From the NCBI RefSeq assembly GCF_014839805.1, contig NC_051115.1:5392600-5456599 (forward strand): a stretch of 64,000 nucleotides of DNA. Reading direction: 5' to 3'. The notes under the pieces are model-generated. The model worked only from the letters and a program-made list of their open reading frames with translations. It was not told the origin of the DNA and searched no databases. Positions 39,140 through 57,123 of this stretch are shown in pieces; positions within the stretch are counted from its first letter, which is position 1, and every line of letters begins with the position of its first letter. Origin of the DNA: Manduca sexta (lineage: Eukaryota; Arthropoda; Insecta; Lepidoptera; Sphingidae). The translations under genes and the position numbers were made by a program.

Positions 39140-39177
39140 ACTAATATTATAAATGCGAAAGTTTGTGAGGATGGATG
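39140..39177 (+). repeat. Rep-K, left part (split by the foldback element)
   Basis: CTAATATTATAAATGCGAAA and GTTTGTGAGGATGGATG. The rest of this copy resumes at 45787 (GGATGGATGTATGTTTGTTC). Compare the unsplit order at 56276-56449. Confidence 0.75.
39169..39177. repeat. Foldback target duplication, left
   Basis: GGATGGATG, immediately outside the left terminus. Confidence 0.88.
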
Positions 39178-39475
39178 ACCTGTGTGAAGTTAGCAAGTGA
39201 GTTTAAAATATATATTTTTTTATATTGCCAAAGGATTGTACTAGGTTAGTACCGGATTGTACCGTTTTTTATTTTGTTTGTACCTTATAGGGCTAGGAGA
39301 TATGGTGTACTGAAAGTTTTGTCAATCAACGCCTTGAGTATAGTAACATAAACTCGCGGCATTTGCAAACCAAGCATCATTTTAATGATTTTATAACTGA
39401 ATGTAATGAAGGAATACGTCTCTCAGTGGTAAAATACCTCTCTAACATGGTACAATCCGAAATGAGGGAGTACAA
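39178..39475 (+). repeat. Foldback terminal inverted repeat, left
   Basis: 298 bases mirrored at 45489-45786. Holds GGATTGTAC at 39233 and 39254 (21-bp spacing), then CTTATAGGGCTAGGAGATAT and TAGTAACATAAACTCGCGGC. Its inner edge is a diverged copy of the arm unit. Confidence 0.9.
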
Positions 39476-39988
39476 CCGGCGGAAATGCACGAAATTCGTA
39501 GAAAATTATTATTTATAAATAAAGTACGGCCATTTTCAAATAAATAATCATTGTGATGATTTTATAGCTGAAAATGATTGACGAATACATCTTTCAGAGG
39601 TACAATCCCTCTCTAGCAGACGACAATCTGAAATGAGGTAGTACAAACGACGGAAATGCACGAAATTCGTAGAAAATTATTATTTATAAATAAAGTACGG
39701 CCATTTTCAAATAAATAATCATTGTGATTATTTTATAGCTGAATATGATGGACAAATACGTCTGTCAGAGGTACAATCCCTCTCTAATAGAGTACAATCC
39801 AAAATGAGGGAGTACAAACGACGGAAATGCACGAAATTCGTAGAAAATTATGATTTTTTTCCAAGTACGGCCATTTTGAAAAAAATCACCCTTGTGATGA
39901 TTTTATCGCTGAATGTGATGGATGAATATGTCTTACAGAGGTACAATCCCTCTCTAACAGAGTACAATACGAAATGAGGGAGAAAATT
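39476..39988 (-). repeat. Foldback left arm: about 3 tandem units
   Basis: Units of about 171 bases in the opposite orientation to the right arm (GGAAATGCACGAAATTCGTA at about 39480, 39651 and 39823). The array breaks in GAGGGAGAAAATTTATAAAT, where the orientation flips. Confidence 0.88.
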
Positions 39989-42900
39989 TATAAATAATAA
40001 TTTTGTACCAATTTCGTGCATTTCAGTCGTTTGTACTACCTCATTTTGGATTGTACTCTATTAGAGAGGGATTGTACCTCTGACAGACGTATTTGTCCAT
40101 CATATCCAGCTCTAAAATAATCACAATGATTATTTATTTGAAAATGGCCGTACTTTATTTATAAATAATAATTTTCTACGAAATTCGTGCATTTCCGTCG
40201 TTTGCACTCCCTCATTTCGGGTTGTACTCTATTAGAGAGGGATTGTACCTCTGAAAGAGGTATTCGTCAATCATTTTCAGCTATAAAATCATCACAATGA
40301 TTATTTATTTGAAAATGGCCGTACTTTATTTATAAATAATAATTTTCTACGAATTTCGTGCATTTCCGTCGTTTGTACTCCCTCATTTCGGATTGTACTC
40401 TGTTAGAGAGGGATTGTACCTCTGTAAGACATATTCATCCATCACATTCAGCGATAAAATCATCACAAGGGTGATTTTTTTCAAAATGGCCGTACTTGGA
40501 AAGAAATCATAATTTTCTACGAATTTCATGCATTTCCGTCGTTTGTACTACCTCATTTCAGATTGTCGTCTGTTAGAGAGGGATTGTACCTCTGAAAGAG
40601 GTATTCGTCAATCATTTTCAGCTATAAAATCATTACAATGATTATTTATTTGAAAATGGCCGTACTTTATTTATAAATAATAATTTTCTACCAATTTCGT
40701 GCATTTCCGTCGTTTGTACTCCCTCATTTCGGATTGTACTCTGTTAGAGAGGGATTGTACCTCTGAAAGACATATTCATCCATCACATTCAGCGATAAAA
40801 TCATCACAAGGGTGATTTTTTTCAAAATGGCCGTACTTGGAAAAAAATCATAATTTTCTACGAATTTCGTACATTTCCGTCGTTTGTACTCCCTCATTTC
40901 GGATTGTACTCTGTTAGAGAGGGATTGTACCTCTGAAGGACATATTCATCCATCACATTCAGCGATAAAATCATCACAAGGGTGATTTTTTTCAAAATGG
41001 CCGTACTTGGAAAAAAATCATAATTTTCTACGAATTTCGTGCATTTCCGTCGTTTGTACTCCCTCATTTTGGATTGTACTCTATTAGAGAGGGATTGTAC
41101 CTCTGACAGACGTATTTGTCCATCATATCCAGCTCTAAAATAATCACAATGATTATTTATTTGAAAATGGCCGTACTTTATTTATAAATAATAATTTTCT
41201 ACCAATTTCGTGCATTTCCGTCGTTTGTACTCCCTCATTTCGGATTGTACTCTGTTAGAGAGGGATTGTACCTCTGAAAGACATATTCATCCATCACATT
41301 CAGCGATAAAATCATCACAAGGGTGATTTTTTTCAAAATGGCCGTACTTGGAAAAAAATCATAATTTTCTACGAATTTCGTGCATTTCCGTCGTTTGTAC
41401 TCCCTCATTTTGGATTGTACTCTATTAGAGAGGGATTGTACCTCTGACAGACGTATTTGTCCATCATATCCAGCTATAAAATAATCACAATGATTATTTA
41501 TTTGAAAATGGCCGTACTTTATTTATAAATAATAATTTTCTACGAAATTCGTGCATTTCCGTCGTTTGCACTCCCTCATTTCGGGTTGTACTCTGTTAGA
41601 GAGGGATTGTACCTCTGAAAGAGGTATTCGTCAATCATTTTCAGCTATAAAATCATCACAATGATTATTTATTTGAAAATGGCCGTACTTTATTTATAAA
41701 TAATAATTTTCTACGAATTTCGTGCATTTCCGTCGTTTGTACTCCCTCATTTCGGATTGTACTCTGTTAGAGAGGGATTGTACCTCTGAAAGAGGTATTC
41801 GTTAATCATTTTCAGCTATAAAATCATCACAATGATTATTTATTTGAAAATGGCCGTGCTTTATTTATAAATAATAATTTTCTACGAATTTCGTGCATTT
41901 CCGTCGTTTGTACTCCCTCATTTCGGATTGTACTCTGTTAGAGAGGGATTGTACCTCTGAAGGACATATTCATCCATCACATTCAGCGATCAAATCATCA
42001 CAAGGGTGATTTTTTTCAAAATGGCCGTACTTGGAAAAAAATCATAATTTTCTACGAATTTCGTGCATTTCTGTCGTTTGTACTCCCTCATTTTGGATTG
42101 TACTCTATTAGAGAGGGATTGTACCTCTGACAGACGTATTTGTCCATCATATCCAGCTATAAAATAATCACAATGATTATTTATTTGAAAATGGCCGTAC
42201 TTTATTTATAAATAATAATTTTCTACGAATTTCGTGCATTTCCGTCGTTTGTACTACCTCATTTCAGATTGTCGTCTGCTAGAGAGGGATTGTACCTCTG
42301 AAAGAGGTATTTGTCAATCATTTTCAGCTATAAAATCATCACAATGATTATTTATTTGAAAATGGCCGTACTTTATTTATAAATAATAATTTTCTACCAA
42401 TTTCGTGCATTTCCGTCGTTTGTACTCCCTCATTTCGGATTGTACTCTGTTAGAGAGGGATTGTACCTCTGAAAGACATATTCATCCATCACATTCAGCG
42501 ATAAAATCATCACAAGGGTGATTTTTTTCAAAATGGCCGTACTTGGAAAAAAATCATAATTTTCTACGAATTTCGTGCATTTCCGTCGTTTGTACTCCCT
42601 CATTTCGGATTGTACTCTGTTAGAGAGGGATTGTACCTCTGAAAGACGTATTCGTTAATCATTTTCAGCTATAAAATCATCACAATGATTATTTATTTGA
42701 AAATGGCCGTGCTTTATTTATAAATAATAATTTTCTACGAATTTCGTGCATTTCCGTCGTTTGTACTCCCTCATTTCGGATTGTACTCTGTTAGAGAGAG
42801 ATTGTACCTCTGTAAGACATATTCATCCATCACATTCAGCGATAAAATCATCACAAGGGTGATTTTTTTCAAAATGGCCGTACTTGGAAAAAAATCATAA

Positions 42901-45488
42901 TTTTCTACGAATTTCGTACATTTCCGTCGTTTGTACTCCCTCATTTCGGATTGTACTCTGTTAGAGAGGGATTGTACCTCTGAAGGACATATTCATCCAT
43001 CACATTCAGCGATAAAATCATCACAAGGGTGATTTTTTTCAAAATGGCCGTACTTGGAAAAAAATCATAATTTTCTACGAATTTCGTGCATTTCCGTCGT
43101 TTGTACTCCCTCATTTTGGATTGTACTCTATTAGAGAGGGATTGTACCTCTGACAGACGTATTTGTCCATCATATCCAGCTATAAAATAATCACAATGAT
43201 TATTTATTTGAAAATGGCCGTACTTTATTTATAAATAATAATTTTCTACGAATTTCGTGCATTTCCGTCGTTTGTACTACCTCATTTCGGATTGTCGTCT
43301 GTTAGAGAGGGATTGTACCTCTGAAAGAGGTATTCGTCAATCATTTTCAGCTATAAAATCATCACAATGATTATTTATTTGAAAATGGCCGTACTTTATT
43401 TATAAATAATAATTTTCTACGAATTTCGTGCATTTCCGTCGTTTGTACTCCCTCATTTCGGATTGTACTCTGTTAGAGAGGGATTGTACCTCTGAAAGAG
43501 GTATTCGTCAATCATTTTCAGCTATAAAATCATCACAATGATTATTTATTTGAAAATGGCCGTACTTTATTTATAAATAATAATTTTCTACCAATTTCGT
43601 GCATTTCCGTCGTTTGTACTCCCTCATTTCGGATTGTACTCTGTTAGAGAGGGATTGTACCTCTGAAAGAGGTATTCGTCAATCATTTTCAGCTATAAAA
43701 TCATCACAATGATTATTTATTTGAAAATGGCCGTACTTTATTTATAAATAATAATTTTCTACCAATTTCGTGCATTTCCGTCGTTTGTACTACCCTCATT
43801 TCGTATTTTACTCTGTTAGAGAGGGATTGTACCTCTGAAAGAGGTATTCATCCATCACATTCAGCTATAAAATCATCAGAATGATTATTTATTTGAAAAT
43901 GGCCGTACTTGGAAAGAAATCATAATTTTCTACGAATTTCGTGCATTTCCGCCGGTTGTACTCCCTCATTTCGGATTGTACTCTGTTAGAGAGGGATTGT
44001 ACCTCTGAAAGAGGTATTCGTCAATCATTTTCAGCTATAAAATAATCACAATGATTATTTATTTGAAAATGGCCGTACTTTATTTATAAATAATAATTTT
44101 CTACCAATTTCGTGCATTTCCGTCGTTTGTACTCCCTCATTTCGGATTGTACTCTGTTAGAGAGGGATTGTACCTCTGAAAGACATATTCATCCATCACA
44201 TTCAGCGATAAAATCATCACAATGTTTATTTATTTCAAAATGGCCGTACTTGGAAAAATCATAATTTTCTACCAATTTCGTGCATTTCCGTCGTTTGTAC
44301 TCCCTCATTTCGGGTTGTACTCTGTTAGAGAGGGATTGTACCTCTGAAAGAGGTATTCGTCAATCATTTTCAGCTATAAAATCATCACAATGATTATTTA
44401 TTTGAAAATGGCCGTGCTTTATTTATAAATAATAATTTTCTACGAATTTCGTGCATTTCCGTCGTTTGTACTCCCTCATTTCGGATTGTACTCTGTTAGA
44501 GAGGGATTGTACCTCTGAAGGACATATTCATCCATCACATTCAGCTATAAAATCATCAGAATGATTATTTATTTGAAAATGGCCGTACTTGGAAAGAAAT
44601 CATAATTTTCTACGAATTTCGTGCATTTCCGCCGGTTGTACTCCCTCATTTCGGATTGTACTCTGTTAGAGAGGGATTGTACCTCTGAAAGAGGTATTCG
44701 TCAATCATTTTCAGCTATAAAATCATCACAATGATTATTTATTTGAAAATGGCCGTGCTTTATTTATAAATAATAATTTTCTACGAATTTCGTGCATTTC
44801 CGTCGTTTGTACTCCCTCATTTCGGATTGTACTCTGTTAGAGAGGGATTGTACCTCTGAAGGACATATTCATCCATCACATTCAGCGATCAAATCATCAC
44901 AAGGGTGATTTTTTTCAAAATGGCCGTACTTGGAAAAAAATCATAATTTTCTACGAATTTCGTGCATTTCCGTCGTTTGTACTACCTCATTTCGGATTGT
45001 CGTCTGTTAGAGAGGGATTGTACCTCTGAAAGAGGTATTCGTCAATCATTTTCAGCTATAAAATCATCACAATGATTATTTATTTGAAAATGGCCGTACT
45101 TTATTTATAAATAATAATTTTCTACGAAATTCGTGCATTTCCGTCGTTTGCACTCCCTCATTTCGGGTTGTACTCTGTTAGAGAGGGATTGTACCTCTGA
45201 AAGAGGTATTCGTCAATCATTTTCAGCTATAAAATCATCACAATGATTATTTATTTGAAAATGGCCGTACTTTATTTATAAATAATAATTTTCTACGAAT
45301 TTCGTGCATTTCCGTCGTTTGTACTCACCTCATTTCGGATTGTACTCTGTTAGAGAGGGATTGTACCTCTGTAAAGACATATTCATCCATCATTCAGCGA
45401 TAAAATCATCACAAGGGTGATTTTTTTCAAAATGGCCGTACTTGGAAAAAAATCATAATTTTCTACGAATTTCGTGCATTTCAGTCGT
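39989..45488 (+). repeat. Foldback right arm: about 32 tandem units of about 170 bp
   Basis: Each unit runs TTTCTACGAATTTCGTGCAT, CGTCGTTTGTACTCCCTCAT, GGATTGTACTCTGTTAGAGA, GGGATTGTACCTCTGAAAGA. Three main sub-types differ after that: GAGGTATTCGTCAATCATTT with CAATGATTATTTATTTG; GACATATTCATCCATCACAT with CAAGGGTGATTTTTTTC; and GACGTATTTGTCCATCATAT. A few units are hybrids (about 43830, 44170, 44510). Confidence 0.92.
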
Positions 45489-45786
45489 TTGTACTCCCTC
45501 ATTTCGGATTGTACCATGTTACAGAGATATTTTACCACTGAGAGATGTATTCCTTCATTATATTCAGTTATAAAATCATTAAAATGATGCTTGGTTTGCA
45601 AATGCCGCGAGTTTATGTTACTATACTCAAGGCGTTGATTGACAAAACTTTCAGTACACCATATCTCCTAGCCCTACAAGGTACAAACAAAATAAAAAAC
45701 GGTACAATCCGGTACTAACCTAGTACAATCCTTTGGCAATATAAAAAAAATTATATATTAAACTCACTTGCTAACTTCACACAGGT
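45489..45786 (-). repeat. Foldback terminal inverted repeat, right
   Basis: Inverse of 39178-39475 with few differences. Minus-strand GGATTGTAC at 45723-45731 lies 55 bases from the end, as at left. Confidence 0.9.
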
Positions 45787-45795
45787 GGATGGATG
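45787..45795. repeat. Foldback target duplication, right
   Basis: GGATGGATG, immediately outside the right terminus. Confidence 0.88.
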
Positions 45796-50999: not shown

Positions 51000-51690
51000 T
51001 TTTTCCCCGTTTTTGCAACATGTTTCATTACTGCTCCGCTCCTATTAGTCATAGCGTGATGATATATAGCCTATAGCACTCCAGGAACAAAGTGCTATCC
51101 AACACAAAAATATTTTTTTCAGTTCGATCTGATAGTTCCTGAGATTAGCCATTTCTGATCCGCTCCTATTGGTCATAGCGTGATGATACATACCCCATAG
51201 TACTCCACGAACAAAGAACTATCCAACACAAAAATATTTTTTCAGTTTGAACCGGTAGTTCCTGAGATTAGCCATTACTGCTCCGCTCCTATTGGTCATA
51301 GCGTGATGATATATAGCCTATAGCACTACACTAATAAAGAGCTATCCAACACAAAAAGAATTTTTCAGTTCGAACCGGTAGTTCCTGAGATTAGTCATTA
51401 CTGCTCCGCTCCTATTGGTCATAGCGTGATGATATATAGCCTATAGCACTACAGTAATAAAGAGCTATCCAACACAAAAATAATTTTCCAGTTCGAACCG
51501 GTAGTTCCTGAGATTAGTCATTACTGCTCCGCTCCTATTGGTCATAGCGTGATGATATATAGCCTATAGTACTCCACAAACAAAGGGCTATCCAATGCAA
51601 AAAGAATTTTTCAATTTGGACTGGTAGTTCCTGAGATTAGCGCGTTCAAACAGACAAACAAACAAACTCTTCAGCTTTATATAATAGTAT
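51000..51690 (+). repeat. 122-bp tandem array, five units
   Basis: CCGCTCCTATTGGTCATAGC recurs at about 51035, 51157, 51280, 51402 and 51525. Each unit also has TATAGCCTATAGCACT and GGTAGTTCCTGAGATTAG. The array ends in AACTCTTCAGCTTTATATAA, the usual 3' end of Rep-G, so it is an expansion inside that repeat. Confidence 0.8.
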
Positions 51691-56263: not shown

Positions 56264-56275
56264 CTTCTCCATATT

Positions 56276-56900
56276 CTACTAATTTTATAAATGCGAAAGT
56301 TTGTGAAGATGGATGTATGGATGTAGGTATGTATATTTGTTCCTCTTTCATGAAAAAACTACGGAACGGATTTGGATGAAACTTTACAGTAATATTGGTT
56401 ATACATCAGAATAACACATAGGCTACAATTTGGAATGATTCTGTGTAATGGGTGGGTTATGTAGCGTGTTTGCAAGACGATCGCTGGACAAAAAGAATGA
56501 CGACATGGACCGGGCCAGGCAAACGCTACAGAGGAAGACCGCTTACGAGGTGGCAAGATGAGATTATCAGGACAGCGGGTCATGATTGGATACAGAAAGC
56601 TCAGATTAGAGAGCGCTGGAAATCTTTGGGGGAGGCTTTTACCCGTGGCCCCTCCACGGAAAACCCATAATAAATAAAAAATTTAATACTAAGCGTAACC
56701 TAACTTAATAAATCATAAATATTAGTAAATAAGTTATAATTTAAAAACTGTATATTAGGTAATAATAGCTTAAGTTAAAACAAAAATTCTTAACTGTTCT
56801 TATCTTTTCTAGGAATAAAAAGCTTTTTTATTTCTATTTTATTTATCTGTGTAATTTGGTCATAATATAACGATACATATCAAGTTAATCGGAAAAAAAT
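56276..56900 (+). repeat. Rep-K copy split by a LINE
   Basis: TTTTATAAATGCGAAAGTTT to GATTCTGTGTAAT (56449), resuming at 56847 with CTGTGTAATTTGGTCATAAT and ATAACGATACATATCAAG. The same sequence without interruption is at 45787-45935. Confidence 0.75.
56450..56846 (+). mobile_element. 5'-truncated LINE with 9-bp duplication
   Basis: CTGTGTAAT flanks it (56441-56449, 56847-56855). The insert reads WTKRMTTWTGPGKRYRGRPL, TRWQDEIIRTAGHDWIQKAQ, IRERWKSLGEAFT and stops at 56668-56670, then a 3' UTR with AATAAA near its end. This is the C-terminal end of an RTE-type endonuclease/reverse-transcriptase with an uninterrupted frame, so the insertion is fairly young. Confidence 0.82.
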
Positions 56901-57123
56901 TGCTAATAAATCGTTTTTCTTTCTAAACTATAACTGTGGAAATTTCATACTTCATCCGTGTTATTTTCGTTAAAAAGGTACAAAGTATTTGTTTCACGTA
57001 GTAATAAGAAATTGTTAAGTAATCTTGAAAAACCAGCGGGTGATCCTCTGAAGGTTGGAAGCGATTGGACCACCAACCTGGCTAAACATAGTGCCCCGAA
57101 GCAAGGTTATAATGATAGTCCAT

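Follow-up and report, generated by a model that had tools for sequence, protein, structure and literature searches.

The locus raises the question of whether a palindromic stretch of about 6.6 kb, lying in a 64-kb window (the whole stretch of DNA that was analysed), is a transposon that inserted at this position and, if so, to which class it belongs and what mobilises it. A first-pass annotation of the sequence had described it as a 6.6-kb foldback transposon with an exact 9-bp target duplication.

Boundaries and target site duplication

The two ends of the palindrome are inverted copies of each other, with 8 mismatches in the 298 bp originally noted as mirrored and 12 mismatches when the comparison is extended to 337 bp. 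The 9-mer GGATGGATG abuts both ends, and these are its only two copies on either strand of the window. Together with the empty paralogous sites described below, these observations bear out the description of the locus as a foldback transposon with an exact target duplication. The interval first assigned to it, 39169..45795, includes both copies of the duplication; the inserted element proper extends from the left terminus at 39178 to the right terminus at 45786 (Table 1). The left arm (39178-39982, 805 bp) and the right arm (39986-45786, 5801 bp) differ in length by approximately 7:1, and the flip in unit orientation between them, previously placed at about 39990, is present but falls at 39983-39985. 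Searches of the rest of the window with blastn at an E value of 1e-3 gave no match to the element, and a scan of the window against Rfam gave no match.

Table 1. Features of the window element and of the six further two-ended copies
Feature	Position	Strand	Remarks
Left copy of the 9-bp target site duplication, GGATGGATG	39169..39177	.	flank search; empty sites
Left terminal domain, 170 bp, as a whole not unit-derived; tip ACCTGTGTGAAGTTAGC	39178..39347	+	
Subterminal paired motif GGATTGTACT-NNGTTAG-NNNN-GGATTGTACC, 56-86 from the end, common to units	39233..39263	+	
Left arm array, ~171-bp units	39348..39982	-	
Central junction, flip of unit orientation	39983..39985	.	by eye, nearly the same sequence in C22, C12 and C16
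Right arm array: 33 anchors, 32 full units of 168-171 bp, two classes and mosaics	39986..45616	+	
Right terminal domain, 170 bp, the left domain inverted	45617..45786	-	
Subterminal paired motif, right terminus	45701..45731	-	
Right copy of the 9-bp target site duplication, GGATGGATG	45787..45795	.	flank search; empty sites
Two-ended copy C24, 2290 bp			exact 9-bp duplication TACTATTGA; arms 1259/1031 bp
Two-ended copy C18, 4101 bp			exact 9-bp duplication CTCAACATG; arms 3046/1056 bp
Two-ended copy C7, 6170 bp			exact 9-bp duplication AGCAACCAC; arms 4395/1772 bp
Two-ended copy C26, 6644 bp	C26:19664865-19671508		exact 9-bp duplication CTATTCTAA; arms 2158/4455 bp (with N gap)
Two-ended copy C12, 2009 bp			exact 9-bp duplication TTCATTTGT; arms 856/1150 bp
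Two-ended copy C22, 12119 bp			exact 9-bp duplication GTAAACTCC; arms 7677/4440 bp (N gap in the longer arm)

The sequence that received the element is itself a dispersed repeat, which becomes continuous once the element and one 9-mer are taken out. This had been claimed from the window, and paralogues both there and elsewhere in the genome agree. The paralogue within the window (56271-56450) matches the joined flanks, reads AGATGGATG at the corresponding site and carries 16 extra bases just downstream. A search with the joined flanks and a single 9-mer returned 2139 candidate places in the genome, and all 40 that were scored span the joint. Fifteen paralogues were fetched and aligned. Each possesses a single 9-bp site with neither insert nor extra bases (15/15), and in 7 of the 15 the site is exactly GGATGGATG. 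Empty paralogous sites of this form support a duplication of 9 bp and argue against a chance palindrome. A duplication of 5 bp rather than 9 bp at the repetitive GGATGGATG is disfavoured, as all 15 empty sites have the length predicted for 9 bp. The second host-repeat copy in the window (56271-56908) is broken after 56450 by an insert of approximately 400 bp that resembles, by eye, the 3' end of a non-LTR retrotransposon.

Copies of the element in the genome

The same assembly, comprising 470 Mb in 4056 contigs, was searched with the terminus and gave at least 282 matches, with 40 of 221 candidates scored. A tip pattern allowing up to three mismatches was found at 109 places (54 and 55 by strand) compared with none for the reversed control. 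The tip occurs exactly 17 times in the genome, and 14 of these occurrences form seven inward-facing pairs, one of which is the window copy (C1). Among the three single exact tips, the arrays of C15 and C16 stop at a 500-N gap and the third is on C3287. On the far side of the C15 gap, at a distance of approximately 6.4 kb from that tip, there is a 249-aa alanine/proline-rich frame that is cuticle-protein-like by eye.

The six further two-ended copies, which together with the window copy are the two-ended members of group A, range from 2.0 to 12.1 kb. The check proposed by the first-pass annotation, a search for other copies with 9-bp duplications of their own, was positive for 6/6, giving exact duplications in 7/7 copies, all of different sequence. 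The flanks, compared over 15 bp per side, are likewise different in all seven copies and the ends are clean. The annotation would have abandoned the transposon had there been no such copies, or had the terminus been found only within a satellite or segmental duplication; neither holds for group A. Over 298 bp, the termini differ at 1 to 8 positions within a copy (mean 4.9) and at a mean of 7.3 positions between copies. In the C26 copy the two arms show 99.6% identity over their first 800 bp, the closest resemblance in the set of seven, and it may be noted in passing that this copy could be the youngest or could have been recently converted.

The assembly thus contains seven clean two-ended insertions with strongly different arm lengths; by comparison, the available text on Tetris bases its description on three structurally complete copies (PMC4079207). 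Such a series would allow the effect of terminal unit number on transposition, favourable or adverse, to be studied, along with the growth of foldback arms, their exchange and their transition to satellite DNA. No description of the group-A family was found in the open-licence literature searched by keyword, nor, among those papers, any with foldback elements in Lepidoptera as the title subject. In the accessible part of a paper on the monarch (PMC8848866), the mention of foldback is a reference-list entry. Exact element patterns gave 0 matches in viral and prokaryote sequence collections, which are poorly suited to this search.

Arms and repeat units

All seven two-ended copies consist purely of arm, in the form of inverted arrays of ~170-bp units with no more than 32 bp between the left and right arrays (7/7). 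Apart from the N gaps of C22 and C26 and a central stretch of ~32 bp at most, every copy is covered by arrays and termini. The two features that define the foldback class, dispersed copies each with a target duplication of their own and long terminal inverted repeats (TIRs) of direct repeats with little or no middle, were each found in 7/7 copies. The earlier statement that there is no coding middle stands, the arms adjoining directly in the window copy and in the family copies. Stop-to-stop frames of at least 110 aa, excluding frames across N gaps, were absent from six of the seven, and the C26 copy has a single such frame of 123 aa, built of array units. A coding middle is ruled out by this frame scan and by the array coverage of the seven copies.

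Arm length in the family ranges from 0.8 to 7.7 kb, although the longest arm contains an assembly gap and the gap-free maximum is 5.8 kb. The ratio between the arms varies over the seven copies from about 1.2:1 to 7:1. The unit length and the 7:1 asymmetry of the window copy had been considered unusual. This view is not supported: ratios vary within the family, and the accessible portions of published descriptions give units of 164 bp (PMC10218199) and ~220 bp (PMC4079207).

The tandem units of the window element, estimated beforehand at about 170 bp, measure 170 or 171 bp (one of 168 bp), and its 34 full units fall into two classes, X (21 units) and Y (13 units). Units of class X share a mean identity of 95.2% with one another and those of class Y 96.8%, against 87.4% for comparisons across the two classes, and units 43773, 44115 and 44454 are mosaics of X and Y. 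Exact repeats of up to 368 bp recur in the element at whole-unit intervals. Of 183 units from the seven copies, 82 had their nearest unit within their own arm, 26 in the opposite arm of that copy and 75 in a different copy. The count for the same arm (82/183) compares with a mean of 21 and a maximum of 39 in 500 label shuffles. As judged from the unit sequences, this demonstrates local homogenisation, and the pattern is that expected from unequal exchange or conversion within arms combined with older shared types.

A paired motif common to termini and units

Termini and units both carry a paired GGATTGTAC motif with a spacing of 21 bp. The terminal form of the motif (Table 1) aligns with the unit over 31 bp with 25 matches, and the terminal pair faces the other way from the units in the arm to which it belongs. 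All 64 occurrences of GGATTGTAC in the window are inside the element. The exact composite motif was counted 19 times in the window (two of them terminal) compared with 0 in 100 shuffles, for a pattern picked after viewing the sequence. Both halves at 21 bp were present at 23 unit positions of 36 anchors, and hence not in every unit. Both copies of GGATTGTAC were present in 16/16 of the family tips read, with a change to the spacer in one.

The local-alignment score between terminus and unit was above that of all 2000 shuffles and was reached by 1 of 336 real control slices. Raw 9-mer diagonals between terminus and units were equalled by 7/336 control slices. When 9-mers were required to contain four or more G/C, a collinear pair of the kind shared by terminus and units was found in 0/336 slices and at 0/5690 sliding positions; this GC-filtered test was devised after the two cruder and weaker similarity tests.

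From these data the paired GGATTGTAC motif is inferred to be a candidate transposase binding site. The available text on Galileo, a foldback-like element of Drosophila, describes a THAP-domain footprint on its first site at +63 to +80, against 56-86 for the paired motif here, and further THAP-domain binding sites in the tandem repeats of the TIRs (PMC3688188). In Tetris, by the accessible description, a 37-bp stretch, matching at about 80%, is common to the outer terminal domain and the 220-bp units (PMC4079207). For a site shared by terminus and units, Galileo is a tested precedent and Tetris an untested one.

Classification and relationship to known elements

The insertion with its 9-bp duplication, the family of copies, their all-arm structure and the shared motif were observed directly, and the element is very probably a non-autonomous cut-and-paste foldback DNA transposon, one copy of a dispersed family mobilised by a transposase made elsewhere. 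The first-pass annotation had proposed a MULE-type transposase for this role. Neither the seven two-ended copies nor 25 kb read from a sister composite showed a transposase gene, so that placement in a superfamily rests on duplication length and architecture. The Mutator superfamily is characterised by target duplications of ~9-11 bp, and 9 bp was found in 7/7 copies; Rehavkus is characterised by minisatellite or satellite units at or in the termini, a position occupied here by the 170-bp units. On these two grounds, a transposase of the Mutator/Rehavkus type probably acts in trans.

FB of Drosophila melanogaster has long inverted arms of direct repeats, a 9-bp duplication and units of ~31 bp. 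The present element has the same inverted direct-repeat arms and duplication length, but a unit of 170/171 bp. A transposase from outside the Mutator superfamily, with the foldback form reached independently as in Galileo (P superfamily), is unlikely though not negligible; Galileo makes a target duplication of 7 bp, whereas 9 bp was found in 7/7 copies here. The absence of a transposase from the seven copies and the 25-kb sister stretch is compatible with such an origin, and foldback forms are thought, in the available text on Tetris, to arise in different superfamilies (PMC4079207). A Mutator/Rehavkus-type transposase, on the other hand, accords with Table 1 of PMC6446971, which gives 9 bp for Rehavkus and for several MULE groups. 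According to the accessible part of a 2026 survey of arthropod MULEs, Lepidoptera include 88 species with such elements, of which 75 have a complete one in Table 1 of the survey (PMC13359780); should the host be lepidopteran, a helper of this type would thus be plausible.

In unit size the nearest elements are Rehavkus-1_TC and Tetris, not Drosophila FB, and by its 9-bp duplication, satellite-sized units in inverted termini and lack of coding capacity the family is also closest to these two, as compared by description from the accessible portions of the papers cited. Rehavkus-1_TC of Tribolium castaneum, a Mutator-related DNA transposon of 9.5 kb, carries 164-bp TCsat23 units in its inverted termini, mostly five and eight in a row (PMC10218199). 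Runs in Tribolium reach at most nine consecutive monomers (PMC10218199), unlike the 32 full units of the right arm here. Rehavkus is further described as having a transposase with a PHD finger and a minisatellite before the 3' TIR (PMC6446971), whereas no transposase was seen in the seven copies and arrays are present in both arms. Tetris of Drosophila virilis is a non-autonomous foldback element with ~220-bp units in long TIRs, duplications of 8-10 bp and units that also feed satellite arrays (PMC4079207). It differs in possessing an inner domain in its TIRs and a middle domain between them, both absent here, where the arms meet within 32 bp, and in having TIRs of up to 1,735 bp, compared by description with gap-free arms of up to 5.8 kb (PMC4079207).

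Proposed mechanism and variation of the arms

A transposase made elsewhere would recognise the conserved terminal ~100 bp, comprising the tip ACCTGTGTGAAG and the 21-bp-spaced GGATTGTAC pair, join both ends and insert the element through a 9-bp staggered cut. Because the 170-bp unit that makes up the arms carries the terminal motif, additional binding sites would probably be numerous in each arm. Arm length would change through unequal exchange and conversion from unit to unit, and an exchange involving both inverted arms could turn the middle with respect to the ends. A more speculative extension, which we regard as doubtful, is that the whole element acts as an expandable array of transposase sites, in which arms of ~0.8 to at least 5.8 kb recombine and the centre flips, and from which escaped units seed the palindromic satellite composites of group B described below.

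The sequence across the junction is, by eye, near-identical in C1, C22, C12 and C16 (reversed in C12 and C16) and different in C24, C18, C7 and C26. The shared junction suggests that a single founder probably gave rise to copies of very different arm length, the others having another centre. When C1 and C22, which have the common junction in the same orientation, were compared, six terminal sites were swapped between left and right, none matched side by side and one separated the copies. A tree of 16 tips paired C1_R with C22_L (support 0.88) and C1_L with C22_R (0.39), and the signal fades beyond 298 bp. Exchange between inverted arms that inverts the centre, or conversion of the ends, would explain the swap, although one pair of copies and six sites are suggestive only.

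It is very unlikely that the arms are assembly artefacts, that is, collapsed or expanded repeats. Four group-A loci (C15, C16, C22 and C26) do have a 500-N gap in or at the edge of the array, rendering array lengths there unreliable, but the window copy, C24, C18, C7 and C12 contain no N, and termini and duplications are independent of array length.

Sister groups and satellite composites

Two groups of relatives differ from group A in their surroundings. Group C comprises six relatives of 1.2 kb with common flanks, on both sides in five and on one side in the sixth, and with no duplication found. Common flanks of this kind indicate that group C copies were probably spread inside another dispersed repeat. 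Group B, with the tip ACCTGTTTGAAG or one close to it, is represented by three copies that were read, and in 3/3 the sequence flanking one tip recurs beside the other in inverted form and not as a direct duplication, which makes group B a composite palindromic repeat. The inverted flanks match over at least 970 bp at 98.6% in C2; C4 and C24 show ~455 bp of match at 95%, which in the latter resumes after an offset. Around C24:10291788, arrays of 148-bp units lie on either side of the 170-bp arrays, and the composite formed by the two kinds of array and the inverted flanks was followed over C24:10281572-10306571. An extra minus-strand tip lies ~7 kb past the pair in this composite, and a similar spacing is seen on C3.

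For group A, a satellite array or segmental duplication merely resembling a transposon is scarcely credible, since its units do form long arrays but the seven copies are cleanly bounded, lie in different flanks and carry 9-bp duplications, and 15/15 paralogous sites of the window copy are empty; a satellite-only reading is contradicted by these duplications and empty sites, and stands for group B, with termini buried in a palindromic composite (3/3 read) amid 148-bp arrays, and for group C, with six copies in one set of flanks and no duplication. Group B led nowhere as a source of transposase: in the 25-kb stretch, a scan for frames of at least 120 aa met only arrays, array frames and a gap, with no non-array frame, few group-B copies having been read.

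Other features of the window

Six of the 64 listed frames of the window had no Pfam match above the cut-off. In a scan of ten window frames, nine had no Pfam match at E 0.01. The tenth, a stop-to-stop frame of 199 aa on the minus strand (629-1228), matched a C2H2 zinc finger weakly, scoring below the cut-off of Pfam. A tandem array that has no blastn match to the element occupies 51026-51641 and consists of five copies of a 123-bp unit.
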